Positions 15,952 to 36,939 of a stretch of DNA of 42,754 nt are shown here, piece after piece. The notes beneath the pieces were generated by a model, which worked only from the letters and a program-made list of their open reading frames with translations, was not told the DNA's origin and searched no databases. The translations under genes were made by a program, and so were the position numbers. The stretch comes from Tidjanibacter sp. (GTDB lineage Bacteria > Bacteroidota > Bacteroidia > Bacteroidales > Rikenellaceae), in the NCBI GenBank assembly GCA_017503465.1, contig JAFVSY010000095.1:1-42754 (forward strand). The letters are read 5' to 3'. Position 1 is the first letter of the stretch. The number at the start of each line of letters is the position of its first letter.

Positions 15952-17145
15952 CTACTTTTTCTGAGGTACAATGCAGACACTCAGCCTGCTGTCGGCTCCG
16001 TGCCACATATTCTCCACCGTAAAGTTCATTGTGTCGCCTTTAATCATAAGGTTCTGCTGCGACATCGGCGAGAGGGTAATCTCTCGCTGGCCCTCGGCTT
16101 TGAGCACAAAGGGGAGCGAAGAGTTGTTCACAAGCCTTATGAGTTTTTTGCCATCGGGCCTGTCGAGGATATCCTCGGCACTCACACAAGCCTCAAAGAG
16201 TGCTTTCAGGAGCGACTCCTCGCCTGCCATTGTACCAAACGAATAGGCTATGGTGCGGCGCTCAGCGAGTGCTTCACGCACACCCTCTTCCGTACACTCA
16301 TTGGCCAAAATCATCGTAAAGTTGCGGATTTGTCCGTTGAGATAGAAGTCTGCCGTGGTGTTGTGGATGTCGGTGCTGGAAGCCATAAAGAACCCATATT
16401 TTTTGGCCCTATCAATGGCCTTGGGATAGAACTCGTTGGTGTTCATAATCTCGATGCCATCGATGAGTCCTTTCTCGTAGACCCTCTGCTCAAACTCGTG
16501 CATCTCCAAACTCTCTCGTTTCCACCCGGGGTGGTTGTGCATAATGATGGCTCCTTGTGCGCGAGCGTTGAGGATTGATTTTTCGGGGTCGTCATCATAG
16601 ATGGTATTGTTGTTTTTGGTGAAGAGGGCATTGAAGTGTCCGTAGAGTTCGGGCCTGCGGGTAACTTCGATGCCTCGGATAACCATAATACCATAGTAGT
16701 TCAGACTCTTTTGCAGTCCATAGAAGGGTGCGTTGAGGTCCACTTTGATGCCATTTTCATCGGCAATGGTCTTGCTTATGGCATAGTTCACCGGCTTGGT
16801 ACCTTTGGGCACATAACCGCGCAAGAACTTAATCATATCGGGCTCAAACTTGCGCCATTCGAGGTGGTCGGTGATGGCCAAAATGTCGAGTCCGTCCATC
16901 CACGCCTCTCGGATGCGCATATCGGGCGAGAGGTGTCCATCGGAGAAGAACGTGTGGGTGTGGAGGTCGGCTTTGAAGACCTTGTAACCATTGACATCGG
17001 GAATCACAATATTACGGCGCTCCACGGGGGTGCAGGCGGTGTGATGCAGGATGTCGGGGTTGATGTTGTCTTGATAGTAGAGTTGTGCGCTTGCACCTTG
17101 GCAGAGGGCCACCACTCCGAGAAGTACCAATAGTATTTTCTTCAT
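15952..17145 (-). CDS. Secreted PHP-domain phosphoesterase
   Basis: The 397-aa protein has a signal peptide in residues 1-20 (GVVALCQGASA) and a PHP metal-dependent phosphoesterase domain. The metal-binding motifs are visible: DLHTHTFFSDG (H62 and H64), AITDHLEW, a middle HNHPGW and SSTDIHNT near the end. It resembles the Sb-PDE-like phosphodiesterase group seen in Bacteroidetes. It would act in the periplasm on a phosphate mono- or diester. As the last gene of the PUL operon, 90 bp after GH88 on the same strand, it is likely to process something liberated from the same glycan. The true substrate is unknown. Confidence 0.85.
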   Translation of the reverse strand: MKKILLVLLGVVALCQGASAQLYYQDNINPDILHHTACTPVERRNIVIPDVNGYKVFKADLHTHTFFSDGHLSPDMRIREAWMDGLDILAITDHLEWRKFEPDMIKFLRGYVPKGTKPVNYAISKTIADENGIKVDLNAPFYGLQKSLNYYGIMVIRGIEVTRRPELYGHFNALFTKNNNTIYDDDPEKSILNARAQGAIIMHNHPGWKRESLEMHEFEQRVYEKGLIDGIEIMNTNEFYPKAIDRAKKYGFFMASSTDIHNTTADFYLNGQIRNFTMILANECTEEGVREALAERRTIAYSFGTMAGEESLLKALFEACVSAEDILDRPDGKKLIRLVNNSSLPFVLKAEGQREITLSPMSQQNLMIKGDTMNFTVENMWHGADSRLSVCIVPQKK

Positions 17146-17235
17146 AAGGATGGGTTTTGTGTGGTTTTATGTTTGACAATGGTGGCAACCTTGTGTGTTA
17201 CCACCATTGCCTGCAATGCTTTGCGTTATGCGTTC

Positions 17236-18423
17236 CTACTCCCTACCGAGGGCCTGCCAACGCAGGAGGCCTTCCAAGAAGTAGTAGTCGGCATAGGTCA
17301 GAGGAACATCCACCTCGCCACCTGCGGGCTTGTGGCCCACGCCGTGTCGGAGGATGAAGTTGTTGTTGGTGCCGGGCTGTGCGAGATACTCATCGGAGGC
17401 GAGTGTGCGCAACTGCCTTTCGGCCACGGCGAGATAGGCCTCACTACGCTCGGGCACGAAACCGCTCAACTCGATGAGAGCCGAAGCCATAATGGCTCCT
17501 GCCGAAGCATCTTGGAGGTCGTTGGGGATGTCGTGCGAGTTGAAATCCCAGTAGGGGATGCCGTCCTCGGGGAGATAGGGCAGAATCATCTCGGCCACCT
17601 TTGTTGCCTGCTCAAGGTAGGCTTGCTCTCCGGTCATACGATGCATCATTGTGAAGCCATAGAGTGCCCAAGCCTGACCACGAGCCCACCTCGACTCATC
17701 GGCGAAACCTTGCACTGTTTGTTTCTTGTTGATGCTACCATCTTTGGGATTGTAGTCCACGAGGTGATAGGTGCTGTAGTCGCTGCGGAAGTGGTTTTTC
17801 ATTGTGGTGTTGGCGTGGGTTTTGGCAACGTGTTTGAGTTGCTCATCGCCATCACGATTGGCCACCCACATAATGAGTTCAAGGTTCATCATATTGTCGA
17901 TGATAACGGGGAAGTCCCACAACTCTTTTTTGAAGTCCCAACTACGGAGCGAGCCGATAGTGGGGTTGAAACGGCTTGCGAGCGACTTTGCGCCGTTGCG
18001 GAGCACGGGAACATAGTCTTCGTTGCCGGTCAGACGGTAGCCGTTGCCATAGCTGCAAAAGAGTTGGAAGCCCACATCGCGGTCGGTAGTTACCCACTGC
18101 AGGGGGTCGAGTTTGAGTGTGTGCTTTTCGGCCAGAGCCTTGATTTCCTCATCTTTGGTGTACTCATAGATGTACCACATCGAGCCGGGGTAGAAGCCGC
18201 TGCACCACCAGTAGATGTCGGTGTGTACGAAACGGTTACGCTCGAAAGTTCGGGGACAACGTCCCTCGGGAAGAGTGGCGTCCATATTTTTGCAATGTGC
18301 GGCAGCCACCTCCATCACCTCTTTGGTGATTTGCTCCATACTCTTCTCCCCGCTTTGCGTCCCCACACAAGAGATGGACGCAAGCGAGAAGATAGCCAGA
18401 GCGGTGATAAACAGTTTTTTCAT
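17236..18423 (-). CDS. GH88 unsaturated uronyl hydrolase, lipoprotein
   Basis: The 395-aa protein is a glycoside hydrolase family 88 enzyme. It removes 4,5-unsaturated glucuronyl residues left at the non-reducing end after a polysaccharide lyase has cut. The signal sequence ends SLASISC (C19), so it is probably a lipoprotein. The two acidic residues expected from characterised GH88 enzymes are in place: D116 in TTDRDVGF and D176 in VIIDNMMN, 60 residues apart. Other family marks are DESRWARGQAWALYGF and LQDASAGAI. It lies 29 bp behind the fimbrillin-lyase fusion gene. Its presence is the best evidence that the neighbouring heparinase-like proteins act as uronate-specific lyases. Confidence 0.93.
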   Translation of the reverse strand: MKKLFITALAIFSLASISCVGTQSGEKSMEQITKEVMEVAAAHCKNMDATLPEGRCPRTFERNRFVHTDIYWWCSGFYPGSMWYIYEYTKDEEIKALAEKHTLKLDPLQWVTTDRDVGFQLFCSYGNGYRLTGNEDYVPVLRNGAKSLASRFNPTIGSLRSWDFKKELWDFPVIIDNMMNLELIMWVANRDGDEQLKHVAKTHANTTMKNHFRSDYSTYHLVDYNPKDGSINKKQTVQGFADESRWARGQAWALYGFTMMHRMTGEQAYLEQATKVAEMILPYLPEDGIPYWDFNSHDIPNDLQDASAGAIMASALIELSGFVPERSEAYLAVAERQLRTLASDEYLAQPGTNNNFILRHGVGHKPAGGEVDVPLTYADYYFLEGLLRWQALGRE

Positions 18424-18452
18424 CGCTTTGAGTTGTTGTTTGTAGTTATTTC

Positions 18453-21248
18453 CTATTTAAACTGCCACTGAACATAAACTTGGTCACCAGCAGCAAAATT
18501 GCCTTGGAAACCAATGCGGTGGTAGCCGGCAAGTTCACCCGTCAGTTCCTCCACAAATGGAGCCATAGTCATATTGGCACTGTCGGTACACACCATCATT
18601 GTTGTCGTTCCGTTATTTACAACCTTACAGTTTTTCGACACAAATTTAATACTCATCTCAACCCCATTTTGTACAAGTTTGAGGTTTGTGCCCTTATTGG
18701 TTACCGCTACCGCAGGAGGAGTGATAATCTGCCAACGATAGGTGCAGGCCTTCTGAACTTGGAACTTATCATAAACGGTCAGGTAGCCCACAGCATTACC
18801 ATTGGCATCGTTGAACATATAGTCGCGCACCATATTGTCGGCACCAATACCAAGAATGTACTTATTGGCCTTTTTGCCCTCTTTCTCGATACCACAGAGT
18901 TGCCAACGAGTGTAGTATTTTCCTTTTGTACCCCAAGGGCTATCTCCCCAAGTGGAGTCGAGGAATGTTTTACCATCATAGTGAGAGGGAACCCAAGTGG
19001 TACCTCCGTCAGTACTGATATTGGGTACGTTGTGGTTGTAGTTGTTGTAGCGTGCCACATTCCATCTCTGCGAAGTGGTGGCATAGTCCCAGAATTTTGC
19101 ACCAATCTCATTAGCATAGGCAGCCTCATCGCCACCACCGAGGTCGCACACCCAACGCATACCTTTGTAGTCATAGACAAACGAGCCACCATCCTTCTGT
19201 GCACGATTGGTATTGGCAAGACCGCCCTTGATACCGATGTAGGCTTGTGCATTGTAGGTGGCCTCATCCTTGGGGGTGAGAATCATTACGGCAGGCATAC
19301 CGGTTGCTCTCACACCATCCTCGGCCATAAAGTAGGCACTCTTTGCACCTGCGTTAGGTGCAGCGGGAGTGGCGGTTGCCTGACTTGCATCCATCAGAGC
19401 AAAGATGGTGGGCAGCAGGCGGAATTCGCTGAAACTCTCCTTGTAGGCACCCTTGTCATAGAGTTGCTTCTCGTTGTAGAGCAGATTTACGTCTTTCTCC
19501 TTGCGAGCAAAGAACCAGTTGGGCAATTTGGGTTCCCACTCCTCTTGTGCATCGCCATAGTTGAATACTTTACCCGAGGAGCCAATCATAAAGAGGGCCC
19601 AAGTTGCACTTCCTGCCAAACCGGTGCTCTTGGTATAAAGACCACCATCGGTGGCAAAGATTTTCTCCAAGGCGGTGATGAGGATGGCCTCATAGGTGGT
19701 CGAGTGTGCCCAGTGGTCATAGCCCTCATTGTAGGCACCATAAACATCGTAGGGCACAAAGCCACTTGCAAGGTTGGCAGCCACAGCACCATCAACGAGG
19801 GCAGCGGCAGCAGCCTTACCCTTTTCGTAGGTGGCCAAACCTGCCAACACGGCAGCCGAGTTGCAGATGGCATTGGTGGAGTTGTTGGTGGTGGAGGTGA
19901 GGGTGGCGGCGTTGGTGGTCAGTGCCTCCAAAGCTGCCTCACGAGTGGTGGCATTCAGGTCGTAGTGCAACCAGTCGTAGCCCAAAGCCACTGCGGTGGT
20001 CAGTTCGGCCACATCGATAATCCAGTTCTCGCCATTCCAATCGGTCCAACCACACACAGCGTTGATGTCCTTCTCGGCCTGAATGAGATACTCGGCCTTA
20101 TTGGTCATTCGGTAGCCATAGGAGAGGAACAAAATACGCTCCAAAGCCTTCTCGCTGACGGCGGTCAAACGATTATAAACCAAAGCCTTGCTCAAATCGC
20201 CCTCGCCCAAAATCTCCTCGCAACGAGCCAAAATGGTCTCGTGGAATTGTTTGGCCACAGCATTGGTCTGCACGGTGGTTTTCAGGGTTTTGAGGTCGTC
20301 TGCGTTGATGAGCAAGCGGGGGTGAGCCGCAGCCTCCAATTTGGCATAGTCGAAGGTGCCGGTGGGGGTAGCCGAAGTGTCATCGGCACTCTCGCCTGCG
20401 AGCCCGTCAATGGCAATCACTGCTTGGCTGCCTGCGGGCAGACCTGCTGCGGGCACAGCCTTCTTGAAAATCTCCTCGCCATTGAGCACAATGGCCAAGG
20501 TCTTGCCTGCGTGGCCCGGGGTAACGGGCACATAGAGGGTGGTTGCGGTGGTCGAAATCACCTCGGGACCCTCCACAACAGTGGTGTTGCTACCGCTATT
20601 GAGAGTGAGCGCACCGTTGGTGAGGTTCAGAGTGCCCTCGCCATTGATTTTCTCTCCCTCCTCGGCAACCACTTCAAGGCTCTCCACAGCCAGAGTGCCA
20701 TCAGCAGTCGAAAGGCGCACCTCCAACACTGCCAATGCGTGGGCGAAATTAAGACCAACGCCATCAGCCTTTACACTGGTGGCCGAAGCATAGAGCAGGT
20801 CGGCAGCAGCAGCCTCGGCCAACGAGCCATCGGTGGTGGCAGGCACTGCAAAGGGTACAGCATCCGCAGTGGCAGCCTCGGCAGCGTAGGGATAGTAGGC
20901 ATAGAAAGTGTGCTCGCTACTCTCATCTTTCCACGAGATGGGCGAAGTGGAGGTAAAGTGTACCTGTGCGCCCTCCTCGGCGGGAGTGTAGAGAACATTG
21001 GCACTCTCGGTGAGAGTCTCGAAGATACCGATTTGGTCGGCACTCTTCCAAGTGGTGGCCAACACGCCACCATTTTCGGCATTGGGTGTGAGCAGAGTGC
21101 GTGAGCAGTCGGTTGCCACGCCCTCAAACACCACCGCACCGGCGGGGAGATTGGTCTCGGGACCAATCTCCTCTGCGGGTTCGTTTACGCAGGCGAAAGC
21201 CACCATTGCGGCTCCCAACACTGCTATGTATTTCACAAACTTTTTCAT
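18453..21248 (-). CDS. Lipoprotein fusing a fimbrillin-like domain to a heparinase II/III-type lyase
   Basis: The 931-aa protein has a lipoprotein signal (C20 in MVAFAC). Residues about 30-285 look like a Bacteroidales fimbrillin (Mfa/Fim-like) domain, with TTWKSADQIGIFET, HTFYAYYPY, ADLLYA and LNFAHALAVLEVRL. After a linker SADDTSATPTG, residues about 298-931 match the heparinase II/III architecture: an alpha toroid with HPRLLI, SYGYRMT and CGWTDWNGENW, then a C-terminal beta-sandwich with DGGSFVYDYKGMRWVCDLG. It is a close paralogue of the next gene. Compared with the two other lyases here, WNQVCNGG is replaced by TNAICNSA, YGT by HST, and the H of HxDxGSF is Q684. Catalysis may therefore be altered or lost. 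It is probably surface-exposed. Confidence 0.85.
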   Translation of the reverse strand: MKKFVKYIAVLGAAMVAFACVNEPAEEIGPETNLPAGAVVFEGVATDCSRTLLTPNAENGGVLATTWKSADQIGIFETLTESANVLYTPAEEGAQVHFTSTSPISWKDESSEHTFYAYYPYAAEAATADAVPFAVPATTDGSLAEAAAADLLYASATSVKADGVGLNFAHALAVLEVRLSTADGTLAVESLEVVAEEGEKINGEGTLNLTNGALTLNSGSNTTVVEGPEVISTTATTLYVPVTPGHAGKTLAIVLNGEEIFKKAVPAAGLPAGSQAVIAIDGLAGESADDTSATPTGTFDYAKLEAAAHPRLLINADDLKTLKTTVQTNAVAKQFHETILARCEEILGEGDLSKALVYNRLTAVSEKALERILFLSYGYRMTNKAEYLIQAEKDINAVCGWTDWNGENWIIDVAELTTAVALGYDWLHYDLNATTREAALEALTTNAATLTSTTNNSTNAICNSAAVLAGLATYEKGKAAAAALVDGAVAANLASGFVPYDVYGAYNEGYDHWAHSTTYEAILITALEKIFATDGGLYTKSTGLAGSATWALFMIGSSGKVFNYGDAQEEWEPKLPNWFFARKEKDVNLLYNEKQLYDKGAYKESFSEFRLLPTIFALMDASQATATPAAPNAGAKSAYFMAEDGVRATGMPAVMILTPKDEATYNAQAYIGIKGGLANTNRAQKDGGSFVYDYKGMRWVCDLGGGDEAAYANEIGAKFWDYATTSQRWNVARYNNYNHNVPNISTDGGTTWVPSHYDGKTFLDSTWGDSPWGTKGKYYTRWQLCGIEKEGKKANKYILGIGADNMVRDYMFNDANGNAVGYLTVYDKFQVQKACTYRWQIITPPAVAVTNKGTNLKLVQNGVEMSIKFVSKNCKVVNNGTTTMMVCTDSANMTMAPFVEELTGELAGYHRIGFQGNFAAGDQVYVQWQFK

Positions 21249-21288
21249 TGCAATATATATGTTCTATCGGGTTAGTTGCTCTTTGGAC

Positions 21289-23337
21289 TTATTTCTCGGG
21301 GAAGGAAACGTGGAGTTTAACCTCATCGCCCTGTACAAAGTTACCCTCGAAACCAATCACGTGGTAGCCCTCAAACTCGCCGGTCAGAGGCTCAACAAAG
21401 GCAACCATTTTGGGATTGGTGTTGGTATTAACAACCATCTGCTCGCCATTGAGGTAGCAGTTCTTGGTGGTCAGTTTCAGACGGCGGCTGCTACCATCAG
21501 GCAGGGTAAGTTTTACGTTGGTATTCATATTCTGGACAACGATCTCTTTGGGAACAACACACTGCCAACGGTAGGTGCAATCTTTCAGCACGTCAAACTT
21601 CTCCCAGATGCTCAACTGGCCGGCAGCATTAAACTGGAAGTCGCGCTCCAAAGGCCTTGTAGCATCATCAATGCGGCTCACATAGGGAGCAGCATTGTCG
21701 CTATTGACGCCACCCATATTCCAACGAGTGTAGTTCTTGCCGTTCGCACCCCAAGGACTGTCGGCCCACGCGGTGTTGAGAGTGGTCATACCATCGGTAG
21801 CAGCGGTGGGTTTGGTGGTTGCGCCAACCTCATAGAAGTTGGGCACGTTGTGGGCCAAGTTGCTGTATGCCCAAGCGGAGGTCCACCTTGCCGAGCCGGT
21901 AGAGTAGTTGTGGTAGTCGGCACCGGCAGCCTCGGCATAGGCAGCCTCGTTGCCTGCGCCCAAGTCGGTTACAAGACGCACACCCTTGAAGTCATACACA
22001 AACGAGCCGTTGTCTTGGTGACCGTTGTAGCCGTTGGCAGAGCCACCCTTCACAGCGTAGTAGGAATCAACGCCCTCGTCGGTGGAGAACACTGCAACGA
22101 AAGCCATACCATCGGCAGCCTCGCCATTGTTGTCGCAATACCAGTAGTGGCTGGTGGGGGCAGCAGGAATCTTGGTTGCCTGTGCGGGGTCCATCAGTGC
22201 GAAAATTGCGGGCAACAAGCGGTACTCGCTGAAACGGCCCTTGTAGGAGACGCCATCGTTGTAGAGTTTCTTCTCAACGTGGAGATACTTGGTGTCGTTC
22301 TCCTTGCGAGCGAAGAACCAGTTGGCCAGTTTGGGCTCGGCCTTCTCCTGTGCGTTGCCATAGTTGAACACATTGCCCGAGGTACCAACCATAAAGAGAG
22401 CCCACTCGGCACTCTTAACAAACGACTCGCTGGTAGCATACAAACCACCATCGTTGGCAAACACGGCCTCCAATGCGCTAATCAACATAGCCTCATAGGT
22501 GGTGGCGTGTGCCCAGATGTCGTAGCCCTCAACGTAGGCACCTGCGTGGCCATAGGGTGCAAAACCGCCCTTCTTGTTGGCAGCCACTGCATCGTCAAGC
22601 AGTTTTGCTGCGGTAGCCTTGCTACCATTGTCATACATCGCCAGTGCAGCCAAACCGGCAGCAGCGTTGCAGATGGCATTGGTGGAGTTCTCTGCCTCGG
22701 TAACGAGTGCAGGAGCGTGTGCTTTCAGTGCAGCCAAAGCAGCCGTGCGGGTTGCCTCGCTAAGGTTGTCGTAGAGCCAGTCGTAGCCCAAAGCCACAGC
22801 AGCGGTAAGTTCGGCAGCATCAATAACATAGTTCCCACCATTCCAATCGGTCCAACCACACACAGCATTGATATCCTTCTCGGCCTGAGTGAGATACTCG
22901 GCTTTCTGGGTGGTACGGTAGCCATAGGAGAGGAAGAAAATGCGCTCCAAGGCCTTCTCTGCCACGGTGGTCAGGCGTTTGTTCACCAAATCGTTGGCAA
23001 GGTCGCCCTCGGTGAGAATTTCATCGCAACGCTCTATGATGCTGGTGTTGAAAATCTTTGCAGCAGGATTGCTGGCCAAAGCACCCGATTGGAGTGCAGT
23101 CATAGCCTCGGCAGAGATGAGCACGCGAGGGTGAGCAACTGCATCGAGTTTGGTGTAGTCAAACGAGCCCGTAGGAGTTGCCTCGCTGTCGGGTCCGGGT
23201 GTGGGTTTGTCGGGGTCGGGGGTAGGTTTGACATCTTCCTTACCTGGGTCTTGGGGGTCTTTAATTTCGGGGTCCTCGCAGGAGACCATTGTTAAAGCGG
23301 CCAAAAGTGTAGCGGCAAAAACTGCAATTTTTTTCAT
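21289..23337 (-). CDS. Heparinase II/III-type lyase, lipoprotein
   Basis: This 682-aa lipoprotein has C20 in LTMVSC, followed by acidic EDPEIKD (like a surface-export signal) and a Pro/Asp linker KPTPDPDKPTPGPD. The lyase part starts at TGSFDYTKLDAVAHPRVLI. The toroid has SYGYRTTQKAEYL, CGWTDWNGGNY and ALGYDWLYDNLS. The central motif is TNAICNAA, with WAHATTYE about 50 residues later. The zinc-site elements are HQDNGSF, VTDLGAG and AHNVPNF, all with the expected ligand residues. It shares long stretches with the fimbrillin-fused protein downstream, also at DNA level (around 20040 and 22850), which points to a local duplication. It probably cleaves a uronate-containing glycan at the cell surface. 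Confidence 0.87.
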   Translation of the reverse strand: MKKIAVFAATLLAALTMVSCEDPEIKDPQDPGKEDVKPTPDPDKPTPGPDSEATPTGSFDYTKLDAVAHPRVLISAEAMTALQSGALASNPAAKIFNTSIIERCDEILTEGDLANDLVNKRLTTVAEKALERIFFLSYGYRTTQKAEYLTQAEKDINAVCGWTDWNGGNYVIDAAELTAAVALGYDWLYDNLSEATRTAALAALKAHAPALVTEAENSTNAICNAAAGLAALAMYDNGSKATAAKLLDDAVAANKKGGFAPYGHAGAYVEGYDIWAHATTYEAMLISALEAVFANDGGLYATSESFVKSAEWALFMVGTSGNVFNYGNAQEKAEPKLANWFFARKENDTKYLHVEKKLYNDGVSYKGRFSEYRLLPAIFALMDPAQATKIPAAPTSHYWYCDNNGEAADGMAFVAVFSTDEGVDSYYAVKGGSANGYNGHQDNGSFVYDFKGVRLVTDLGAGNEAAYAEAAGADYHNYSTGSARWTSAWAYSNLAHNVPNFYEVGATTKPTAATDGMTTLNTAWADSPWGANGKNYTRWNMGGVNSDNAAPYVSRIDDATRPLERDFQFNAAGQLSIWEKFDVLKDCTYRWQCVVPKEIVVQNMNTNVKLTLPDGSSRRLKLTTKNCYLNGEQMVVNTNTNPKMVAFVEPLTGEFEGYHVIGFEGNFVQGDEVKLHVSFPEK

Positions 23338-23371
23338 ATTATTGTTCGTTTTTTTAGATTAGTTTTTTTTG

Positions 23372-23500: not shown

Positions 23501-23529
23501 AGTTAATAATATGTTTGTAAGAATAAATG

Positions 23530-25596
23530 TTAGTACCTATTCTTGGAGAAGATAACCGACACATTCATTGTCTCCTCCGGAGCAAGTTGCAACTCATAAG
23601 CAACGATTTCGATGCCGGTGTTGGGCTCATCCCACGAATTGGGGCCTTGGGCCGGATAGGTCATCAGCTTGAGTCGCTTTGAGGGGTCCAAAGTGCCCTT
23701 GTCGTGGTTGATTTTGAATGTGAGGTAGAGTGTCTGACCTGCCTGTTCGAGCTTGACGTGTGTGTCATCTTCGATGGTAACCGTTGAGGGGGTAACCATA
23801 GTCCAACGCACTGTGGGGTTCTTACCCGGGCAAGCGGTCATCCAGTCGGTAACCATCATATCCTCGTTGTTGTTGATGAACTCGGCAACCCTTGTGGGCG
23901 AGTCATACTGCGGGAAGTTCTTGTTGGTTGCAACATCGTGGTTGTTACCATCGAAGTTGTAGCCATACATAGTGAACTTACCTCCGAGTTGGCCCGGATT
24001 GTCGTCAAACCACTGTGGAACGATGAAGGCCTTGCTGGTACAGTTGTGCTTGGTGCCGTTGATGGTGATGACGTTGTGTCCGAAGTTGTTCAGGCGGAAG
24101 ACATCCCACCTTCTGGATGTTTTGGTCATATCCCACAACTGTCCACCAATGGCAGTGTTGGTGTCGCCATAGGTAGGTCTGCCGAGGTCCATAGCCCACC
24201 TCACGCCATAGGCGTCATAGACAAAACTACCTCCGTCCAAGTGGGCGTGGGTGCGGTTGGAACGACCGCCCACAATGCCGAGGAATTTGTCGCTCTCCGA
24301 CATTGTCCAGTCGGTGTGGATAATCACCTGAGGAACACCGGTGTTGCTGTCGCCATCGGGTGCCCACCAGAGTTGTTTGGTGGGTTTTACGGGCTCGCTC
24401 TTGACGTGGTCGAAGTTCATCATTGCAAACAGGGTAGCCAACAGACGGCCCTCGTCGAGTTCGTCGCAGTATTTGCGTTCTTTGATGAGCATCTTCTCCA
24501 CAAAGAGCAGCGAGGGGTCGTTTTGCTTTTTGGCGAAGTACCACATAGGGAACTTACCCATCCACTCCTCGTCGGCATCGGCATAGTTGAACGCCTTGCG
24601 CGAGGGGCCCAACATATGGAGCATCCACTCGGCTGTCTTCTGGAAGCCTTGGCTGTGGGAGTACAGACCTGCTGCATCATCGCCGAAGATTTTCTCCAAC
24701 GCACACATCATCAGCACCTGATAGGTGGTACCATAGCCCCAATAGAGGTAGCCTTCGTTGTAGGCACCGCTGTCGCCATAGGCTGTGTAGCCATATTGTT
24801 TGTTGCTGGCGAGGCTCTGCTCAATCATCTCCACAGCACGAGCCTTGTTTTTCTCATACATAGCAAGGGCGGAGATAATCATACCTCCGTTGCAGACCTG
24901 ATTCCAGTTGGCTTTGTTTTTGAGGAACGACTGCCCTTTGGTTTTGCTGAAAGCATACTCCTCAATCTTACGGCGAGCAAGCTCTCGGGTGGCTGGTTTG
25001 AGGTCATTGTAGAGCCAGTCCAAACCGATTGCCACGCCTGTTGCCATCTCGGCCACATCGAGGAAGTGGTCGTGGTGCCAATCCTGAAACTCACACACGT
25101 TGTTGATGAGCCTCTCGGCCTTGGCCAAGTAGGCGTAGTTACCCGTCATACGGTAGGCATAGGCGAGTTGGGTGATGCGAGTGAGTGCATTACGCGACAC
25201 ATTGAGAATACTGCCGCCCGAAATGGTGTACTTCAAGTCCGTATAGCCGACATACTTGTCGCATCGCTCCAAGATGGTCTCGTGAACATACTTTGTGAAG
25301 TCGGTGGAGAGCACCTTCTCTTTGAGTTCTACCCAATCGGCTGCGGTGTAGAGAATACGTGGGTGAGGTGCTGCATCGAGTTTGGAGTAGTCGAGTGAGC
25401 CCTTCGGGGTTGCCGAAGTGTCATCGGGAGTCTCCACCCCCGTGTTGGTGCCACCTGTGTTGGTGCCACCCTGCTCCACATCGGGGTTGGGCTTTGGTTT
25501 GGGTTTTGGTACAGGCTCAACCTCCTCTCCACAAGCCCACAGACTTACAGATATCAGGAGTGTGAGTAGCCAAGTTGTCATTCGTTTGATTTTCAT
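23530..25596 (-). CDS. Heparinase II/III-type lyase, lipoprotein with long linker
   Basis: This 688-aa lipoprotein has C22 in VSLWAC, followed by GEEVEP and a long unstructured Pro/Lys then Gly/Thr/Asn linker up to about residue 60, as expected for display on the cell surface. The linker ends in DDTSATPKG, as in the fimbrillin-fused lyase. The catalytic part has HPRILYT, CEFQDWHHDHFLDVAEMATG, ANWNQVCNGG and YWGYGTTYQ. The zinc-site elements are HAHLDGGSF, AMDLGRP and GHNVITI, all complete. It belongs with the next gene to the subclass with a Tyr in the YGT motif. It is predicted to be an active uronate-specific lyase, but the substrate family number cannot be fixed without a search. Confidence 0.88.
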   Translation of the reverse strand: MKIKRMTTWLLTLLISVSLWACGEEVEPVPKPKPKPNPDVEQGGTNTGGTNTGVETPDDTSATPKGSLDYSKLDAAPHPRILYTAADWVELKEKVLSTDFTKYVHETILERCDKYVGYTDLKYTISGGSILNVSRNALTRITQLAYAYRMTGNYAYLAKAERLINNVCEFQDWHHDHFLDVAEMATGVAIGLDWLYNDLKPATRELARRKIEEYAFSKTKGQSFLKNKANWNQVCNGGMIISALAMYEKNKARAVEMIEQSLASNKQYGYTAYGDSGAYNEGYLYWGYGTTYQVLMMCALEKIFGDDAAGLYSHSQGFQKTAEWMLHMLGPSRKAFNYADADEEWMGKFPMWYFAKKQNDPSLLFVEKMLIKERKYCDELDEGRLLATLFAMMNFDHVKSEPVKPTKQLWWAPDGDSNTGVPQVIIHTDWTMSESDKFLGIVGGRSNRTHAHLDGGSFVYDAYGVRWAMDLGRPTYGDTNTAIGGQLWDMTKTSRRWDVFRLNNFGHNVITINGTKHNCTSKAFIVPQWFDDNPGQLGGKFTMYGYNFDGNNHDVATNKNFPQYDSPTRVAEFINNNEDMMVTDWMTACPGKNPTVRWTMVTPSTVTIEDDTHVKLEQAGQTLYLTFKINHDKGTLDPSKRLKLMTYPAQGPNSWDEPNTGIEIVAYELQLAPEETMNVSVIFSKNRY

Positions 25597-25610
25597 AGCC
25601 TTTTATGAGT

Positions 25611-27434: not shown

Positions 27435-27463
27435 AGCGTGTGTTGTTTGCTGAGAAGATAGGA

Positions 27464-29296: not shown

Positions 29297-29355
29297 ATCT
29301 TTCTTTTATCTTCTATATTTACATTATATATAAATAGGTGTGCCGAATGGATGCA

Positions 29356-32300
29356 TTAGAACGAAATCTGTGCACCAATTGCATACTGTTTCATCAGAGG
29401 ATAGGTTACCGAAGTTCCCATCTCGGGGTCCAAACCGGGGTAGTTGGTCAGAGTCAAGAGGTTCTCACCCGACACATAGAGGCGGAGTTTGTCCATCTTG
29501 ATTTTCCTTGTCCATTTGGAGGGCAGGGTGTAACCAATCTGAAGGTTTTTGAGTTTGAGGTAGTCGCCCTTATAGCGGTAGAACTCGGTATTGACACCAT
29601 TGTTCAAACGGGACTCGTTGGTCAAACGGGGGTTCTTGGCGTTGATGTTGGTGCGAGGATCCTCGGGATTCATCGGGTCATAGAAGTAGTGGTCATCGGC
29701 CACGCTTTGCATCAGACCATAACCGAGTTTGGTACGAGTGGTGTTGTAGATGTCGTCCTCCCAGTAGAGTTCGAAGCCTGCGCTACCTGCCCACAACATA
29801 TAGAAGTCGAAGCCCTTGTAGTTCATCGAGAAGTTCACACCGAAGTTGTAGATGGGCTGACGGCTGGTGCCGGTGAAGTTCTGGTCGTTGGTCTCACCAT
29901 AGTTGCCATCACCGTTGGAGTCGGCCACGATGAAGTCGCCATACCACAGCGTGTCTTGTTCAGCCTTGCTCAAGCCAAAGAACTTGTAGCCGCTGGCCAT
30001 CATTGCCTGTACCCAAGCCAAATCCTGCTCGGTACGAATCATACCATCCACGGGACCTTGGTCGAGGCCGGGCTCGCCACCCTCGTAGTTACCATTACCC
30101 TTGTAGAGCTCATACATATACATCTCACCCAGCGAGTGGCCCTCTAGAATCAGACCACCGAAACCGCTCTGTACAACATCACCATAGTTGTTGTGGAAAG
30201 TGGTGGGGTTGCCCTCTTCGTCATATTCCCAATATTTCTCAAGGGTGCCTTTGTACTTCATCACGCGGTTTTTGTTGTAGGCGAAGTTACCCTCGATGCG
30301 GTAGCCGAAGTCGCCAATGCGGTCCTCCCAAGCGAGAGTCAGCTCCACACCACGGTTACGCACCTCAGCAATGTTCTGAGTTGCACCGGTTACAGTACCC
30401 ATAGTGATGGGGATGGAGGGAGTGTAGAGAATACCATTGGTATATTTCTCATAGAGGTCGATTTCACCGGTGAGTCGGTTGTTGAATGCACCCCAATCCA
30501 AACCGATGTTGGTGGTGGTAGTGCTCTCCCACTCGAGTGCGGTGTTGCTCAACTTGTTGATTGCAAGGCCGGTTGAAGGTTTGCCATCAACCACCACCTT
30601 GTTGGTTACATAACTTGCCTGCCAATCGTAGTTGCCGCTTGCGCAGTTACCCATACGGCCCCACGATACACGCAGTTTCAGGTTGCTCAGATAGTCCTCA
30701 GCGAAGTCCATAAAGTCCTCCTCGTGGATGCGCCAACCGGCACTAAACGAGGGGAATACACCCCAACGGCTCTCGGGAGCAAACCTCGAAGAACCATCCA
30801 CACGCACGTTGGCCTCGAAGAGGTATTTGTCCCTGAAAGAGTAGTTGGCCCTACCAAAGTAGGACATCAATGCCCAGTCGGTTGCGCTGCTGCTCGAGCC
30901 ACTCAACTCGGTGGCGGTGCTCAACTGGGTAAGAGTCCAGTCGGCCATACCAATCTTAGATACCGAGAAAGACTCCGATTTGTAGAACGAAGTGGAGAAA
31001 CCACCAAGCAGGTTAAGTTTGTGGTCCTCGCCGGTCTCGGGGTCCCAACGAACCAAAATCTCCGAGTTCTCGCGGTGATATTTGGTCGATTTGTTGGTGA
31101 TGGTCTGATTGTCCAGAGTGGTCTTGCTCACAACCTCGTTGGTGAGGTGGTTGTAGGTGCCTTTGGGGAAGCCCCAAGTTGCATAGTCGAGCCAATCGGG
31201 AGCGTAGTTGTAACTTGCCTCGATGGTCAGACTCTTGACGGGATTGATGATACCATAGAGGGTGAAGTTGCCACGGAAGTATTTGTCGTAGCCCTTACGT
31301 ACCATAGTCTTGAAGATGTTGTTGGCGGTGGTGGACTCCTCAACTGCCACGGGAATACCCCAAGCATCATCCTCACCGGGGTAAACACCCGGAACAGTAG
31401 CACCAAGGTATTTGAAACCCTCACTCACCTTCGAGAGGCCCTTGTTCTGCTTAACACCATTAAGGCGGGTACCAATCTTCAACCAATCGTAGACCTTAAT
31501 CTCCAAGTTGGTACGCAGAGAGAATTGGTCCATACCGGTGTCCATACCCCTCTGGTTCATAATACCCTCAACATCCTGATAGCCGAGCGACATAAAATAG
31601 GTCGCATTGCCATTGCCGCCCGAAACGGAGACGTTGTGTTTGGTGGAGTAGCCTGTGCCGACAATCTCATTGAACCAATCGGTGTTGGGATAGGCCATAT
31701 AGTTGGGCAGACCGCCCTCCGAAATACCATTGGGGTCCTGCGAAGCGAGTTCCCAAGCGTCAATGGTCGATTCGTTGTAAACATCGGGCCTGCCCATATT
31801 GTAGGCACCCTCGTTGTGGAGCCTCATATGCTCGGCATAGTTGCTCACAAATTTGAGTTTGTTTTGGGGCTGCTGGAAAGTACCATAGAAATTATAGGTA
31901 ACTTTGGCCTTGCCTGCACCCTTCTTGGTGGTTACAAGCACAACACCGTTTGCTGCCCTCGAACCATAGATGGCAGCCGAAGCAGCATCTTTCAGAATGG
32001 TGATGCTGGCAATATCCTCGGTGTTCACGTTGTTCATATCCCACTCAATACCATCCACCAACACCAGAGGAGAGTTGGAGTTGAGCGAGTTGTTACCACG
32101 AATAAGAATGGTACCACCGGTGCCGGGCTGACCCGAAGATTGGTGTACCTGAACACCTGCCGACAAACCGGCCAGTGCGGTCGAAGCATTGAGCACAGGG
32201 CGGCTGGCCATCGACTCATCGAAGTTTACGGTAGCAACAGAGCCGGTCAGGTCGGCCTTGCGCTGCACGCCATAGCCCACAACAACCACCTCTTCCAGAG

Positions 32301-32595
32301 CCTCTGCGCTGGGAGCCAAAGCGACATTGTGGGTTCCTGCCTTGGAAATCTTCACCGTCTGAGGCTCATAACCCATATACTCGAAGATAACTTCGGCCTT
32401 GGGTGCCACCTTCAAGGTGTAGTTACCATCGGCATCGGTAACGGTTCCGCTACCATCCTGCAACACGACAACGGTCGCTCCCACAAGGGGACTGTTTCCC
32501 TCGTCGGTTACTTTACCGGAAATTGTGATTTGCTGTGCAAATGCCCCGAGGCTGCACATTGCAAACACAACCAAAAGTAGTAGTTTTTGTTTCAT
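29356..32595 (-). CDS. SusC/RagA family TonB-dependent outer-membrane transporter
   Basis: This 1079-aa outer-membrane protein imports oligosaccharides with energy from TonB. It has a signal peptide (SLGAFAQ). A carboxypeptidase-regulatory-like domain at about 22-100 contains GKVTDEGNSPLVGATVVV. The SusC hinge follows (LEEVVVVGYGVQRKADLTGSV), then the plug with ILIRGNNSLNSNSPL and GSRAANGVVLVTTKKG, and a 22-strand barrel ending in an aromatic residue (IGAQISF). The length is normal. It is the first gene of the minus-strand PUL operon and faces the hybrid regulator gene across a 378-bp intergenic region. Substrate specificity is inferred from the co-transcribed lyases and GH88, not from this protein. 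Confidence 0.97.
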   Translation of the reverse strand: MKQKLLLLVVFAMCSLGAFAQQITISGKVTDEGNSPLVGATVVVLQDGSGTVTDADGNYTLKVAPKAEVIFEYMGYEPQTVKISKAGTHNVALAPSAEALEEVVVVGYGVQRKADLTGSVATVNFDESMASRPVLNASTALAGLSAGVQVHQSSGQPGTGGTILIRGNNSLNSNSPLVLVDGIEWDMNNVNTEDIASITILKDAASAAIYGSRAANGVVLVTTKKGAGKAKVTYNFYGTFQQPQNKLKFVSNYAEHMRLHNEGAYNMGRPDVYNESTIDAWELASQDPNGISEGGLPNYMAYPNTDWFNEIVGTGYSTKHNVSVSGGNGNATYFMSLGYQDVEGIMNQRGMDTGMDQFSLRTNLEIKVYDWLKIGTRLNGVKQNKGLSKVSEGFKYLGATVPGVYPGEDDAWGIPVAVEESTTANNIFKTMVRKGYDKYFRGNFTLYGIINPVKSLTIEASYNYAPDWLDYATWGFPKGTYNHLTNEVVSKTTLDNQTITNKSTKYHRENSEILVRWDPETGEDHKLNLLGGFSTSFYKSESFSVSKIGMADWTLTQLSTATELSGSSSSATDWALMSYFGRANYSFRDKYLFEANVRVDGSSRFAPESRWGVFPSFSAGWRIHEEDFMDFAEDYLSNLKLRVSWGRMGNCASGNYDWQASYVTNKVVVDGKPSTGLAINKLSNTALEWESTTTTNIGLDWGAFNNRLTGEIDLYEKYTNGILYTPSIPITMGTVTGATQNIAEVRNRGVELTLAWEDRIGDFGYRIEGNFAYNKNRVMKYKGTLEKYWEYDEEGNPTTFHNNYGDVVQSGFGGLILEGHSLGEMYMYELYKGNGNYEGGEPGLDQGPVDGMIRTEQDLAWVQAMMASGYKFFGLSKAEQDTLWYGDFIVADSNGDGNYGETNDQNFTGTSRQPIYNFGVNFSMNYKGFDFYMLWAGSAGFELYWEDDIYNTTRTKLGYGLMQSVADDHYFYDPMNPEDPRTNINAKNPRLTNESRLNNGVNTEFYRYKGDYLKLKNLQIGYTLPSKWTRKIKMDKLRLYVSGENLLTLTNYPGLDPEMGTSVTYPLMKQYAIGAQISF

Positions 32596-32802
32596 ACAAA
32601 AAGACTTTTAAGGAGTTAATATTTAGGTTTATGATTTGTTGAATGATTTTTGTATTTCGGTAGGAGTCGATGTACACATTGCACATCCTTCTCATAAGGT
32701 CGGTTTTGTTGTAGTCTCGGTGTCGGTTTTTAGGTTGTTTTGCCACTCCGTGAGTGGGTGCATTTTGATAGTGTAAAATTAGGTATTACCTTTCAAGGAA
32801 AT

Positions 32803-32876
32803 TAGTCCAAACTCGCCATTTTGCACCATTCTTGGCTTGTGTTTGGCTCACGAGCCGAGGTAAAATAGTCCAAACT
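32803..32876. promoter_or_regulatory. Candidate operator: paired direct repeats 63 bp apart
   Basis: TAGTCCAAACT occurs at 32803-32813 and again at 32866-32876. The start-to-start distance is 63 bp, six turns of B-DNA, so both copies face the same side of the helix. A 5-2-5 palindrome lies between them. The position, about 210-280 bp upstream of susC, suits binding by the AraC domain of the adjacent hybrid regulator; this is inference. Confidence 0.45.
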
Positions 32877-32917
32877 GTTCAAAATACACCACCAACCGAC
32901 CAACCCGATTGTTGCTC

Positions 32918-32948
32918 GTTGAAAAACAACTTTGTTGTTTTACTTTCG
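32918..32948 (+). promoter_or_regulatory. Candidate promoter of the hybrid two-component regulator
   Basis: GTTG at 32918-32921 is followed by a 19-bp spacer and TACTTTCG at 32941-32948, one base off the TAnnTTTG consensus. It lies 25 bp before the chosen ATG. Confidence 0.5.
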
Positions 32949-32973
32949 CGAAAAAGATTACGATTGTGAACCT

Positions 32974-35900
32974 ATGAAAAACCGCTTTTTAACCACACTC
33001 ATTACCGCTTGTCTGCTGTGTGGGCAGTTATGCTTGGCACAGCCTATGTCGGTAATGCGACAATATGACGCCACGTCGGGACTCTCCGACAACACCGTGC
33101 GCACCATCTTGCAGGATGCTGCCGGCCACATCTGGCTTGGAACCAAAGATGGCATCAATCGTTTCAACGGTGTGCACTTCACTCGTTTCGGAAGCTATCC
33201 CCGCACCACCGACAACCCACTGCTCAACACTCTCAAATTGTGTCCTCACAACACCGACGAGAACAAGATTTGGGTGGCCGCCGTGGATGGCCTCTACCTC
33301 TTTGACCAGACGAGCGGCGAGTTCACCTTCTTGGACGTTAAGGCCGAAGATTCGGTTGGGTTGAAAACACTTGTTGCCGATGTGTGCTATGATGCTCTCG
33401 GCGGCCTTTGGATAGCCACAGTCAACGGACTCTTCTACTACAACGAACTGTTGGGGTGTCTGAAACACTACACCCACGACGGGAGTCAGCCCTCCTCGCT
33501 GCCAAGCAACGCCGTGTCGTGCATTTTGCGCGACTCTTCGGGGGATATGTGGTTCGGAACACGTATGGGCCTCGCCCGCTATCGCAGAGGAGTGGACAAA
33601 TTCGACAACTACTATTTGGAGCACAAACGGGCAGATTCCACACCTTTTGAGGTAACGGCAATTGTGGAGAGCAGCGACGGGGAACTTTGGCTCGGCACAC
33701 GCTACGATGGATTGTTGCGTCTGAACCAAACCACAGGCAAATTTCGCTCCTATCCCGTGGTGGGCACCTCCAAAGACAACACGTGGATACGCGCCCTGCA
33801 CGAGCGCAACAACAACACCCTGCTGGTCGGCACCGAAGACGGACTCTTCATCTTTGACCTCCACACAAAAACCATCCAACACCAAAAGTCGTTGGGTGTG
33901 GAGTCGGTGTACAGCCTTATGGCCGACCGCGAAGGAGGCCTCTGGATTGGCACCTATTTCAATGGTGTTTACTATCTCTCGCCCCAGAGTAACAATATGC
34001 GCTGGTACTACGATGATGGTGCGGAGGGTTCACTCACGGGTAATGCTGTGAGTCAGTTCTGCGAGGACGAGAAGGGCAACGTGTGGGTGGCCACCGAAAA
34101 TGGAGGTCTTAACTACTTCGACAGGCGCACGGGCGAATTTGCCCACTATGGCGCCACCAACGCAAACCACGCAGTGAGCCACAACAACATACACGCACTG
34201 ATGCTCGATGGGCACCGATTGTGGATTGGTACCTTCTCCAAAGGTGTGGACATTATGGACACGCGCACTCGCCGCATCGTCAAAAACTACCATCACAGCC
34301 AAGACGACACCAACTCCTTGCCCAACAACTATGTCTATTGCATCTACCAAACCCGCAATGGGGATGTTTATGTGGGCACAATGGCCGGCTTCTGCAAGTA
34401 CCAGCCCAAGAGGGACAATTTCCACCGCTTTGAGCAGCTGCGCGATATTTTTGTCTACGATATGGTGGAGGACAACGAGGGGCGTCTTTGGCTCGCATCC
34501 AAAGACAACGGCGTGTGGTGCTACCACCACGGAGAGTTCAAAAACTACCTGAATGTCCCCAACGACCACAGCTCGCTCGGCAACAACCACGTAATTCGTG
34601 CCCACTTGGACAAGAGCGGAAAGGTGTGGTTTGCAACCGAGGGCGGCGGCATTTGTTGCTACAATGCCGACACCGACAGTTTCACCAACTACGACCACCG
34701 CCGCAACCTCTACCACCACATCATCTATGGTATCCTCGACGACGACGAAGGCAACCTTTGGCTCTCATCCAACTATGGCATCGTGCGCTACAATCCCACG
34801 ACATTCGAGCAGGTTGTATATACCCACGAGGATGGTTTGCAGAGCAACCAATTCAACTACCGCTCGTCAATGAAGGGTTCCGATGGGATGCTCTACTTTG
34901 GCGGTGTGAACGGATTTAACTGTTTCCATCCCGACCGCTTTCACCGCAACGAGGTGAAACCGACAGCCAACATCTCCGGCATCGTTCTTCATAAACCCTC
35001 GTCGGCCTATGAAATATCCAGTGTGAGTGCCAAAGACAAGGTGGTGATAAATCCTCAAACTGCCTCTTTCGAAATCAGTTACGAGTGTTTGAGCTTCGTT
35101 TCGCCCTCCAAGAACAAGTATGCCTACAAGGTCAACAAACTGCACGAAGATTGGGTGCTGACCGACAAACCCTCCGTAACTTTTATGGATATGCCGGCAG
35201 GCGACTATCGTTTCCTTGTGAGAGTGGCGAACAATGACGGGGTGTGGAGCGACAATGAGTGTTTCGTGGACCTGACCATACAGGCCCCATTCTGGCGCAC
35301 CACCACCGCCAAAATACTCTATTCCCTTGTGGCAGCGTTGATTTGTGCTCTGATACTGAGGCGCTATTTGGGTTGGCAGAAAAACAAACGCAACAGGGAA
35401 ACCAAAGAGATGGAGGTGGCGATGCAACAGGAAATCTATCGCTCCAAAATTGAGTTCTTCACACACGTTGCACACGAAATCAAAACACCCCTCACGCTCA
35501 TCAAAGCACCTTTGGAGGCTGTGCTCGAAGAGGGCAAGTGGGGCGAAGACACGCAAGAGAACCTTATGGTGATGCAGCAGAATACCGACCGCCTGATGGA
35601 GCTCATCAAACAACTGCTCAGCTTCCGTAAAATCGACAACGAGGGATACCAACTATCATACAGTCGTGTGGATATCAACGACTTTGTACGACGCATTGTA
35701 AAACGCTTCGACTCGTCCAAAAAATCCATACGTATCACTGCCAACCTGCCCAAAGAATCGCTTGCGTGGATGGTCGATTCGGAGGCCTTGACAAAGATTG
35801 TGAGCAATCTGTTGGCCAACGGATTGAAATATGCCAATGGTCGCATTGAAGTAGAGGCGACAACCGTGGTGGTGGATGGAAAGAGTATGCTGGAACTCTC

Positions 35901-36939
35901 GGTGAGCGACGATGGCCCCGGCATTACCGACTCCGAAAAAGCCAAAATATTTGAGCCCTTCTATCGCTCTGCAACCACTTCGTCAGAGAATGGTTTTGGT
36001 ATTGGGTTGAGCCTTGTGAAATTGTTGGTGGACAAACACGAGGGTGTCATCACCGCAGGCCGTAGCGAGGCCTTGGGTGGCTTGATGGTAACCATACGCC
36101 TGCCACAAGGCATAGCTACTCCCACCAAAGAGAACATCGAGAGGGTGGAAAGCGAAACAGAGGAGCCTATGGTGGATATCTCCGGACACGAATGTAACCT
36201 CCTGATTGTGGAAGATACCGAGGAGATGCTGGAATTCTTGATGAAAAACCTCGGCTACCACTTCAACGTCTTTGGGGCAAAAAATGGGCGCAAAGCATTG
36301 GAAGTGCTCGAACAGCAAGCCATAGACCTCATTGTGAGCGATATTGTGATGCCGGAGATGGACGGATTTGAATTGTTGGGGGCTGTGAGGGGCGACAAAA
36401 TGTTGTGCCATATTCCTGTGGTGCTGCTCTCGGCACAAGGCACCGTGAACTCCAAAATCACCGGACTCGACTATGGCGCCGATGCCTACATCGAAAAGCC
36501 CTTCTCGCTCAACCACATCAGGGCCACCATCGACAACCTGCTGAAGAACCGCAAGGTACTCTTTGACAGGTTTGCAAGTATGCCGAGTCTTGAATATGGC
36601 AAGGGCGAACTCAAACGCCACGACAGCGAGTGGTTGGAGCAGGTTAATGGTATTATCACCCACAATTTCACCAACGAGAAGTTTAGTGTCGATATGCTCG
36701 CAGCCGAGATGGCTCTCTCGCGCAGCAACCTCAGGCGCAAACTCAAAGGTGTAACAGGACTTGCCCCAATTGACTACATCCGACTCGTGAGGCTCAAATC
36801 GGCAGCCACTCTGCTCAAAGAGGGCAAACACCGAGTGAATGAGGTGTGCTATATGGTTGGTTTCCAAAACCACTCCTACTTTGCCCGTTGCTTCCAAAAG
36901 CAGTTTGGTGTATTGCCGAAAGACTATATGAAAGAGTAG
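32974..36939 (+). CDS. Hybrid two-component system regulator (sensor, kinase, receiver, AraC DNA-binding)
   Basis: This 1321-aa inner-membrane regulator has a signal sequence (ending CLAQP) from the ATG at 32974. The frame to 32932 adds only non-signal residues. Periplasmic part: about fourteen Reg_prop beta-propeller repeats (pattern xLWxGTxxGLxxxN, residues 25-690), then a Y_Y_Y domain (about 700-770). One membrane segment lies near 778-798. Cytoplasmic part: HisKA with HVAHEIKTPL (phospho-accepting H834), an ATPase with N, G1 and G2 boxes (NLLANGLKYA, DDGPGI, GFGIGLSLV), a receiver with VSDIVMPEMDG (D1123) and an AraC HTH (about 1235-1321). All key residues are present. It should sense an oligosaccharide and activate the divergent susC operon. 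Confidence 0.96.
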   Translation: MKNRFLTTLITACLLCGQLCLAQPMSVMRQYDATSGLSDNTVRTILQDAAGHIWLGTKDGINRFNGVHFTRFGSYPRTTDNPLLNTLKLCPHNTDENKIWVAAVDGLYLFDQTSGEFTFLDVKAEDSVGLKTLVADVCYDALGGLWIATVNGLFYYNELLGCLKHYTHDGSQPSSLPSNAVSCILRDSSGDMWFGTRMGLARYRRGVDKFDNYYLEHKRADSTPFEVTAIVESSDGELWLGTRYDGLLRLNQTTGKFRSYPVVGTSKDNTWIRALHERNNNTLLVGTEDGLFIFDLHTKTIQHQKSLGVESVYSLMADREGGLWIGTYFNGVYYLSPQSNNMRWYYDDGAEGSLTGNAVSQFCEDEKGNVWVATENGGLNYFDRRTGEFAHYGATNANHAVSHNNIHALMLDGHRLWIGTFSKGVDIMDTRTRRIVKNYHHSQDDTNSLPNNYVYCIYQTRNGDVYVGTMAGFCKYQPKRDNFHRFEQLRDIFVYDMVEDNEGRLWLASKDNGVWCYHHGEFKNYLNVPNDHSSLGNNHVIRAHLDKSGKVWFATEGGGICCYNADTDSFTNYDHRRNLYHHIIYGILDDDEGNLWLSSNYGIVRYNPTTFEQVVYTHEDGLQSNQFNYRSSMKGSDGMLYFGGVNGFNCFHPDRFHRNEVKPTANISGIVLHKPSSAYEISSVSAKDKVVINPQTASFEISYECLSFVSPSKNKYAYKVNKLHEDWVLTDKPSVTFMDMPAGDYRFLVRVANNDGVWSDNECFVDLTIQAPFWRTTTAKILYSLVAALICALILRRYLGWQKNKRNRETKEMEVAMQQEIYRSKIEFFTHVAHEIKTPLTLIKAPLEAVLEEGKWGEDTQENLMVMQQNTDRLMELIKQLLSFRKIDNEGYQLSYSRVDINDFVRRIVKRFDSSKKSIRITANLPKESLAWMVDSEALTKIVSNLLANGLKYANGRIEVEATTVVVDGKSMLELSVSDDGPGITDSEKAKIFEPFYRSATTSSENGFGIGLSLVKLLVDKHEGVITAGRSEALGGLMVTIRLPQGIATPTKENIERVESETEEPMVDISGHECNLLIVEDTEEMLEFLMKNLGYHFNVFGAKNGRKALEVLEQQAIDLIVSDIVMPEMDGFELLGAVRGDKMLCHIPVVLLSAQGTVNSKITGLDYGADAYIEKPFSLNHIRATIDNLLKNRKVLFDRFASMPSLEYGKGELKRHDSEWLEQVNGIITHNFTNEKFSVDMLAAEMALSRSNLRRKLKGVTGLAPIDYIRLVRLKSAATLLKEGKHRVNEVCYMVGFQNHSYFARCFQKQFGVLPKDYMKE

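Follow-up and report, generated by a model that had tools for sequence, protein, structure and literature searches.

Do four adjacent lyase-type genes in one polysaccharide utilization locus (PUL) encode four enzymes, and does the lack of a sulfatase gene beside them imply an undescribed substrate? Both questions are raised by positions 15952-36939 of contig JAFVSY010000095.1 (assembly GCA_017503465.1; contig label C98) of Tidjanibacter sp., family Rikenellaceae. The window analyzed is the whole contig (42,754 bases); the genome measures 1.97 Mb and is 85% complete. The initial annotation described a nine-gene minus-strand operon there, coupling a SusC/SusD pair to four heparinase II/III-type lyases, a GH88 enzyme and a PHP-domain protein. 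The analysis points to a PL35-based PUL for a low-sulfate glycosaminoglycan (GAG) containing D-glucuronic acid (GlcA), in which two of the four lyase-fold proteins, P3 and P4, are most likely surface glycan-binding proteins; the probability of this reading is put at about 0.55. The locus type is already known, and the pseudo-lyases and the exchange of a P3 segment between strains are what is new.

The four lyase-fold proteins

25611..27434, minus strand: P6 (607 residues), PL35 lyase; triad N186/Y240/H397 intact; signal peptide without lipobox (periplasmic or secreted)
23530..25596, minus strand: P5 (688 residues), PL35-type lipoprotein; PF07940; triad N230/Y285/H450 intact; LWAC lipobox, acidic residues, linker
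21289..23337, minus strand: P4 (682 residues), putative pseudo-lyase lipoprotein; triad replaced by S218/I274/N438; E464 at the Y427 position; MVSC lipobox
18453..21248, minus strand: P3 (931 residues), lipoprotein with a fimbrillin-like domain and a putative pseudo-lyase; triad replaced by S457/H512/R682

Compared with the solved PL35 lyases, P6 matched GAGase II (PDB accession number 8khv) with an E value of 4e-156, GAGase VII (8khw) with 5e-125 and the more remote BcPL35 (9o3q) with 1e-65, and it grouped among PL35 proteins in the tree. The four proteins are mutually homologous, with sequence identities from 28% (P4/P6) to 53% (P3/P4) and BLAST E values of 5e-59 or better in a 15-sequence set. 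By homology, all four are PL35 or PL35-derived. The match of P6 rules out an undescribed type of lyase and places the lyases in PL35, a family of characterized GAG lyases. In the tree, P6 and P5 fall in two separate clades, and P3 and P4 share a long branch with the Tidjanibacter P5 clade, a pairing with support values of 0.70 and 0.62.

The catalytic set of GAGase II comprises Asn192, Tyr246 and His401, and alanine mutants of the triad lost activity on chondroitin sulfate C in GAGases II, III and VII (PMC12088678). Positions below follow GAGase II, whose numbering was verified against the structure chain (offset 22). The triad is present in P6 and P5 and absent from P4 and P3, and the same two intact proteins are the only ones to pass the Pfam heparinase II/III cut-off. 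The count of four heparinase-type lyases thus holds for the PL35 fold, but two of the four lie below the Pfam cut-off and lack the catalytic triad. P4 retains every metal-ligand position, and P3 retains three of the four (D405, D421 and H457 kept; H403 replaced by Q684). Across 119 triad-intact PL35 sequences, six further residues never vary: Y427, E242, R446, D405, H457 and H136. P3 and P4 both retain E242, R446, D405 and H457, have lost H136 and carry Glu at the Y427 position. An aromatic residue in place of H136 is not claimed, because a second alignment shows Asn there.

Proteins of the P3/P4 type were found in four genomes only, all of this genus, in searches of the Rikenellaceae and at order level; the related Tidjanibacter sp. 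metagenome-assembled genomes (MAGs) come from hoofed animals (the rectum of water deer and the cecum of goat and water buffalo). In all four genomes both proteins lack the triad, with some replacements differing, such as Asn instead of Arg in P3 of strain L007 and Leu instead of Ile in P4 of genome G237. Against G237, P4 has a ratio of nonsynonymous to synonymous substitution rates (dN/dS) of 0.14 and P3 one of 0.12 (0.07 in the toroid, 0.18 in the fimbrillin-like domain, 0.08 in the β-domain); the values for P5 and GH88 are 0.07 and 0.03, and the synonymous sites of P6 are saturated. Between close strains the ratios are higher, with values against L006 of 0.33 for P3, 0.16 for P4 and 0.24 for SusD. 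These ratios indicate that P3 and P4 are under purifying selection, and values below 1 together with open reading frames rule out decaying pseudogenes. The AlphaFold2 model of P3 (mean predicted local distance difference test score, pLDDT, of 67) shows a confident toroid, a moderate β-domain and a poor N-terminal domain. A Foldseek search with this model returned 8khv, 8khw and 9o3q as the top three structures, 8khv with a template modelling score of 0.84 by target length. P3 keeps the PL35 fold by model and P4 by homology.

Lipobox and signal peptide calls were made by motif only. As first annotated, three of the proteins (688, 682 and 931 residues) carry lipoboxes and the fourth (607 residues) does not. 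In P3, P4 and P5 the lipobox is followed by acidic residues, a combination expected for surface lipoproteins. The proposed division of labour retains its split between surface and periplasm, but not as four proteins sharing catalysis, since two lack the triad. P3 and P4 are, by these motifs, PUL lipoproteins with an acidic export-type signal and without catalytic residues, which is the profile of surface glycan-binding proteins, and no operon lipoprotein was found besides SusD, the lyase-fold proteins and GH88. A glycan-binding role for P3 and P4 is suggested because the catalytic residues are lost while fold and selection are kept, the signals are of the surface type, the genes lie in the operon and no other candidate is present.

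P3 architecture and the spread of triad loss

20424..21059, minus strand: fimbrillin-like (Mfa_like_1) domain of P3; residues 64-275, 212 residues; PF13149, 98 bits, E value 1.2e-27
18420..19813, minus strand: P3 segment for which sister strain L007 (RGIG1970) has a replacement; approximate boundaries from 300-column bins

The initial annotation made no mention of the 212-residue fimbrillin-like domain on the 931-residue protein. Loci with a similar core encode extra lipoproteins, of 157 and 682-687 residues in four Bacteroides loci, 673 and 685 in L009 and 159 and 675 in L101. Four large lipoproteins of related loci that were scanned gave no Pfam match (E value 0.01). Profile alignment with hhalign paired the P3 N-terminal domain with the N-terminal halves of these larger lipoproteins at 94% (E value 1.2e-7), against 0.1% for their C-terminal halves and at most 0.4% for five shuffles. 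A FISUMP domain in the C-terminal halves was not adopted, as the likeness is by eye and NCBIfam gave no match in the four tested. The AlphaFold2 model of the 682-residue relative was not used (pLDDT 42).

In strain L007, DNA identity to the window is 97-100% in the three bins before the segment, 53-85% in five bins inside it and 98-99% after it, in GH88. At the protein level, P3 shows 96-100% identity over its first 500 residues and, by segment, 28-49% over residues 620-931. The replacement is also without the catalytic residues, with Asn at the H401 position and Gln at the H403 position. No donor of this C-terminus was found in 268 Rikenellaceae genomes, where the best other match, at 48%, is P3 of the window. 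Since the reading frame is unbroken and the sequence on either side is normal, an assembly error in this single MAG is unlikely.

Triad loss was surveyed in 134 non-redundant PL35-like open reading frames (ORFs) from the collected loci and the Rikenellaceae genomes, plus three references; ORFs under 330 residues, weak matches, weaker matches in G016, G050 and G107, and short N-terminal matches were set aside. All three triad columns were present in 135 sequences, references included, and these divide into 119 with N/Y/H and 16 altered. Two further altered sequences carry gaps, and the 18 deviants include eight P3/P4 copies from the four related genomes. The altered triads form four clades in the tree of Rikenellaceae PL35-like proteins, one of them made up of P3 and P4, with modest support at some nodes around them. 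The changes can be partial, as L102 is altered at Tyr only and L114 retains His. At order level, a PL35 match was found in 23 of 295 genomes, the present one included, and 19 loci were taken; the 19 proteins with all three columns were intact, and two more were partial.

One altered clade, from other Rikenellaceae (L096 11724-13703 and L097 10530-12509), is a 659-residue lipoprotein with a Y/A/M triad, encoded between two triad-intact PL35 genes. The genome analyzed here also has a second PL35 locus on contig C115 (L095, L107, L108), with SusC, SusD, two triad-intact PL35 proteins and GH88. A 729-residue protein of that locus, with DUF4906 and a weak FISUMP match below cut-off, is a distant relative of the large lipoproteins. 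Among the literature matches listed, screened by title and start of abstract with subscription papers outside the scope, none described an inactive PL35 protein or a lyase-derived surface glycan-binding protein.

The broader proposal is held more tentatively, at slightly less than even weight: duplicated lyases may have turned into dead surface glycan-binding proteins, one of them behind a fimbrillin-like domain and with its C-terminal part exchanged between strains, and similar losses may have occurred several times among Rikenellaceae PL35-like proteins.

Locus make-up and substrate

32932..36939, plus strand: hybrid two-component system regulator (HTCS); Reg_prop, Y_Y_Y, HisKA, HATPase_c, Response_reg, HTH_18
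29356..32595, minus strand: SusC-type TonB-dependent transporter, 1079 residues; TIGR04056, 850 bits
27464..29296, minus strand: SusD-type lipoprotein, 610 residues; PF07980, 114 bits; lipobox MVGC
17236..18423, minus strand: GH88 unsaturated uronyl hydrolase; PF07470, 45 bits; lipobox SISC
15952..17145, minus strand: PHP-domain metallohydrolase; PF02811, 32 bits; match to 3e38 with E value 1e-47; signal peptide without lipobox

Nine genes are indeed present at 15952-36939, but the HTCS gene lies on the plus strand, divergent from SusC and 336 bp upstream of it, which leaves eight genes in the minus-strand operon: SusC, SusD, P6, P5, P4, P3, GH88 and PHP, separated by 14-192 bp. A SusC/SusD pair, co-directional carbohydrate-active enzymes and a regulator together make this a Bacteroidota PUL. 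The domain matches TIGR04056, PF07980, PF07470 and PF02811 bear out the annotated SusC/SusD, GH88 and PHP genes, the HTCS shows the full set of domains typical of such regulators, and the lyase and GH88 chemistry agrees with the annotation of a locus for a uronic-acid polysaccharide.

The assignment of GH88 rests on family similarity and on the Asp of a D(I/L/V)GF motif, aligned with 3wiw and 1vd5. The Asp in the WTDGF motif of 1vd5 is Ser in the locus protein and Thr in 3wiw; the motif Asp residues are presumed here to be catalytic. The best PDB match is 3wiw (E value 1.5e-103), which we take to be a heparin-active unsaturated glucuronyl hydrolase (UGL) of Pedobacter, and this closeness would favour a 1,4-linked, heparosan-like product. 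The closest structures to the locus SusD do not name a substrate. Secreted PHP metallohydrolases are an expanded family in Rikenellaceae, found in 84 of 268 genomes with up to 10 matches per genome (e.g. G000:C128:2687-3841). PHP was rejected as a constant member of PL35 loci, since only the close strains L006 and L007 have it among 33 loci, some of which end at contig ends; G237, a further genome, also has PHP. Elsewhere in the window (9593-12811), a 1072-residue protein gave no Pfam match (E value 0.001); its N-terminus resembles that of a lipoprotein, and its gene adjoins one of the Omp28 type.

PL35 GAGases cut domains of non-, 6-O- or N-sulfated hexosamine with GlcA, and the characterized PL35 enzymes favour GAGs with GlcA that are non- or hypo-sulfated (PMC11262172), a preference that fits the low-sulfate substrate initially proposed. 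BcPL35 prefers unsulfated chondroitin (PMC12269599). The locus most likely targets a low-sulfate GAG that contains GlcA, either hyaluronan, chondroitin or a heparosan-like chain, with no choice made among the three. An alginate lyase is unlikely: GAGase III needs His at position 191 (PMC12088678), which is Thr in P6 and Ala in P5.

The annotated absence of sulfatases was confirmed for the locus. The S1 sulfatase motif occurs in none of the 82 window ORFs that reach 100 residues, a count that covers flanks of 15.9 kb on one side of the locus and 5.8 kb on the other, and none of the five PF00884 matches in the genome (85% complete, as noted) lies on this contig. Elsewhere in the genome the motif occurs in two proteins, one of 500 residues on contig C38, closest to carrageenan sulfatases, and one of 540 residues on C57. 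A 475-residue neighbour of the latter carries a near variant of the motif and is closest to YidJ and a 2-O GAG sulfatase. Sulfatase absence does not hold as a rule for PL35 loci, because by motif, in the stored flanks, two of 33 loci have an S1 protein and 31 have none. An S1-motif protein lies near PL35 at L032 1182-2618 and L035 10391-11977, both from MAGs that are Verrucomicrobiota by title.

The step from sulfatase absence to an undescribed substrate is weakened by PUL25 of Bacteroides caccae, a PL35 and GH88 locus without a chondroitin sulfatase, for which a sulfatase encoded outside the locus is proposed (PMC12269599), and by the sulfatase genes on other contigs of the present genome. 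As PUL25 was published without a sulfatase of its own, the conclusion does not follow. PUL25 resembles the Tidjanibacter locus in these features and in its preference for unsulfated chondroitin; it differs in having GH109, GH154 dehydratase and M60-like genes, and a single PL35 and no pseudo-lyase are named in the available portion of that paper (PMC12269599). GAGases II and VII resemble P6 and P5 in family, triad and metal-ligand positions, and P3 by modelled fold and P4 by homology; unlike them, P3 and P4 lack the triad and P3 has a fimbrillin-like domain, and N191 of GAGase II is Thr in P6 and Ala in P5. The Bacteroides thetaiotaomicron loci for heparan sulfate and chondroitin sulfate also combine lyases, GH88, HTCS and SusC/SusD and include a surface glycan-binding protein, but their lyases belong to PL8, 12, 13, 15, 29 and 33, some encoded distally, and sulfatases lie in the locus (PMC9067506).

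HTCS, SusC, SusD, a P6-type PL35, a P5-type PL35 and GH88 follow one another in the same order in PL35 loci of four Bacteroides: B. xylanisolvens XB1A (L024), B. congonensis (L010), B. acidifaciens (L012) and Bacteroides sp. GM023 (L013). Their stored flanks contain no P3/P4 or PHP homologue, and the lipoproteins of 157 and 682-687 residues follow GH88. Between HTCS and SusC, each has a 477-residue gene (L024 3136-4569, L010 3137-4570, L012 3136-4569, L013 3158-4591). It encodes a SASA-type esterase domain, as tested in L024 only, and hints at an O-acetylated substrate in these four loci.

An undescribed polymer of uronic acids, for instance a bacterial capsule, as substrate in place of a host GAG would be in keeping with that esterase-family gene, with the PHP enzyme and with Thr and Ala at the GAGase II N191 position. 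It is nevertheless rather unlikely: the closest solved relative of P6 is GAGase II, GH88 is closest to 3wiw, presumably heparin-active, and the 191 position varies in triad-intact PL35 proteins, being Thr also in BcPL35, a chondroitin lyase.

Proposed mechanism and its weight

By analogy with published GAG loci, the HTCS would sense an unsaturated disaccharide. The surface lipoprotein P5, judging from its triad and family, would cut the chain by β-elimination, SusC/SusD would by homology import the fragments, the non-lipidated P6 would complete their breakdown in the periplasm, and GH88 would release 5-keto-4-deoxyuronate. P4 and P3, with the fold kept and the catalytic residues gone, probably hold the polysaccharide at the surface beside SusC/SusD. 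The fimbrillin-like domain of P3 is possibly a stalk, and the C-terminal part of P3, including the β-domain, appears exchangeable by recombination.

Several points weigh against this reading. Two cleft residues are acidic in both P3 and P4 (R94 and Y427 replaced by Glu), so binding of a polyanion such as a GAG in that cleft should weaken. Two altered clades of the survey (L102, L114, L123, L131, L159, L160, L162, L163) look non-lipidated by eye, and triad loss is thus not always tied to a surface lipoprotein. Against L006, the β-domain has a higher dN/dS than any other domain of P3, 0.49. The P3 N-terminal domain and the 682-residue relative are both poorly modelled. Fimbrillin-like domains are common in Bacteroidales lipoproteins, so their likeness indicates a shared design and does not prove orthology. 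Lastly, the Y232A mutant of BcPL35 retains roughly one-third of its activity (PMC12269599), so catalysis does not necessarily end when only Tyr is lost; the His mutant was below detection, as was the mutant at the Y427 equivalent (PMC12269599).

Instead of binding glycans, P3 and P4 might assist P5 in a structural or regulatory role, or be surface proteins that vary under phage or immune pressure. The replaced P3 C-terminus between unchanged flanks in L007 and the β-domain ratio against L006 would suit such proteins, but the same β-domain is conserved against G237, and P3 and P4 are encoded within the PUL operon, from whose P5-type lyase they branch off; this explanation is given only about one-fifth of the weight. 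Less probable still is another catalytic set acting on another linkage, for which P3 offers H512 and R682 at the Tyr and His positions beside the retained D405, D421 and H457, as P4 has Ser, Ile and Asn at the triad positions and P3 of L007 has Asn for the Arg. That all four are active lyases with differing linkage or sulfation preferences, split between surface and periplasm, is highly improbable despite their homology, shared operon, three lipoprotein signals and the residual activity of the BcPL35 Tyr mutant, since P3 and P4 lack all three residues needed for activity on chondroitin sulfate C in GAGases II, III and VII (PMC12088678) and also Y427, whose mutant in BcPL35 was below detection (PMC12269599).

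PULs are commonly read by their count of lyase and hydrolase genes. With half of the apparent lyases here lacking catalytic residues, such a count overstates degradation. If P3 and P4 do bind glycan, dead polysaccharide lyases, at present annotated as enzymes, would make up a class of proteins for glycan capture, Bacteroidota would be making capture proteins from their own enzymes, and low-sulfate GAGs might be purified or detected with these proteins as affinity reagents. The repeated triad losses make the idea open to comparative testing.

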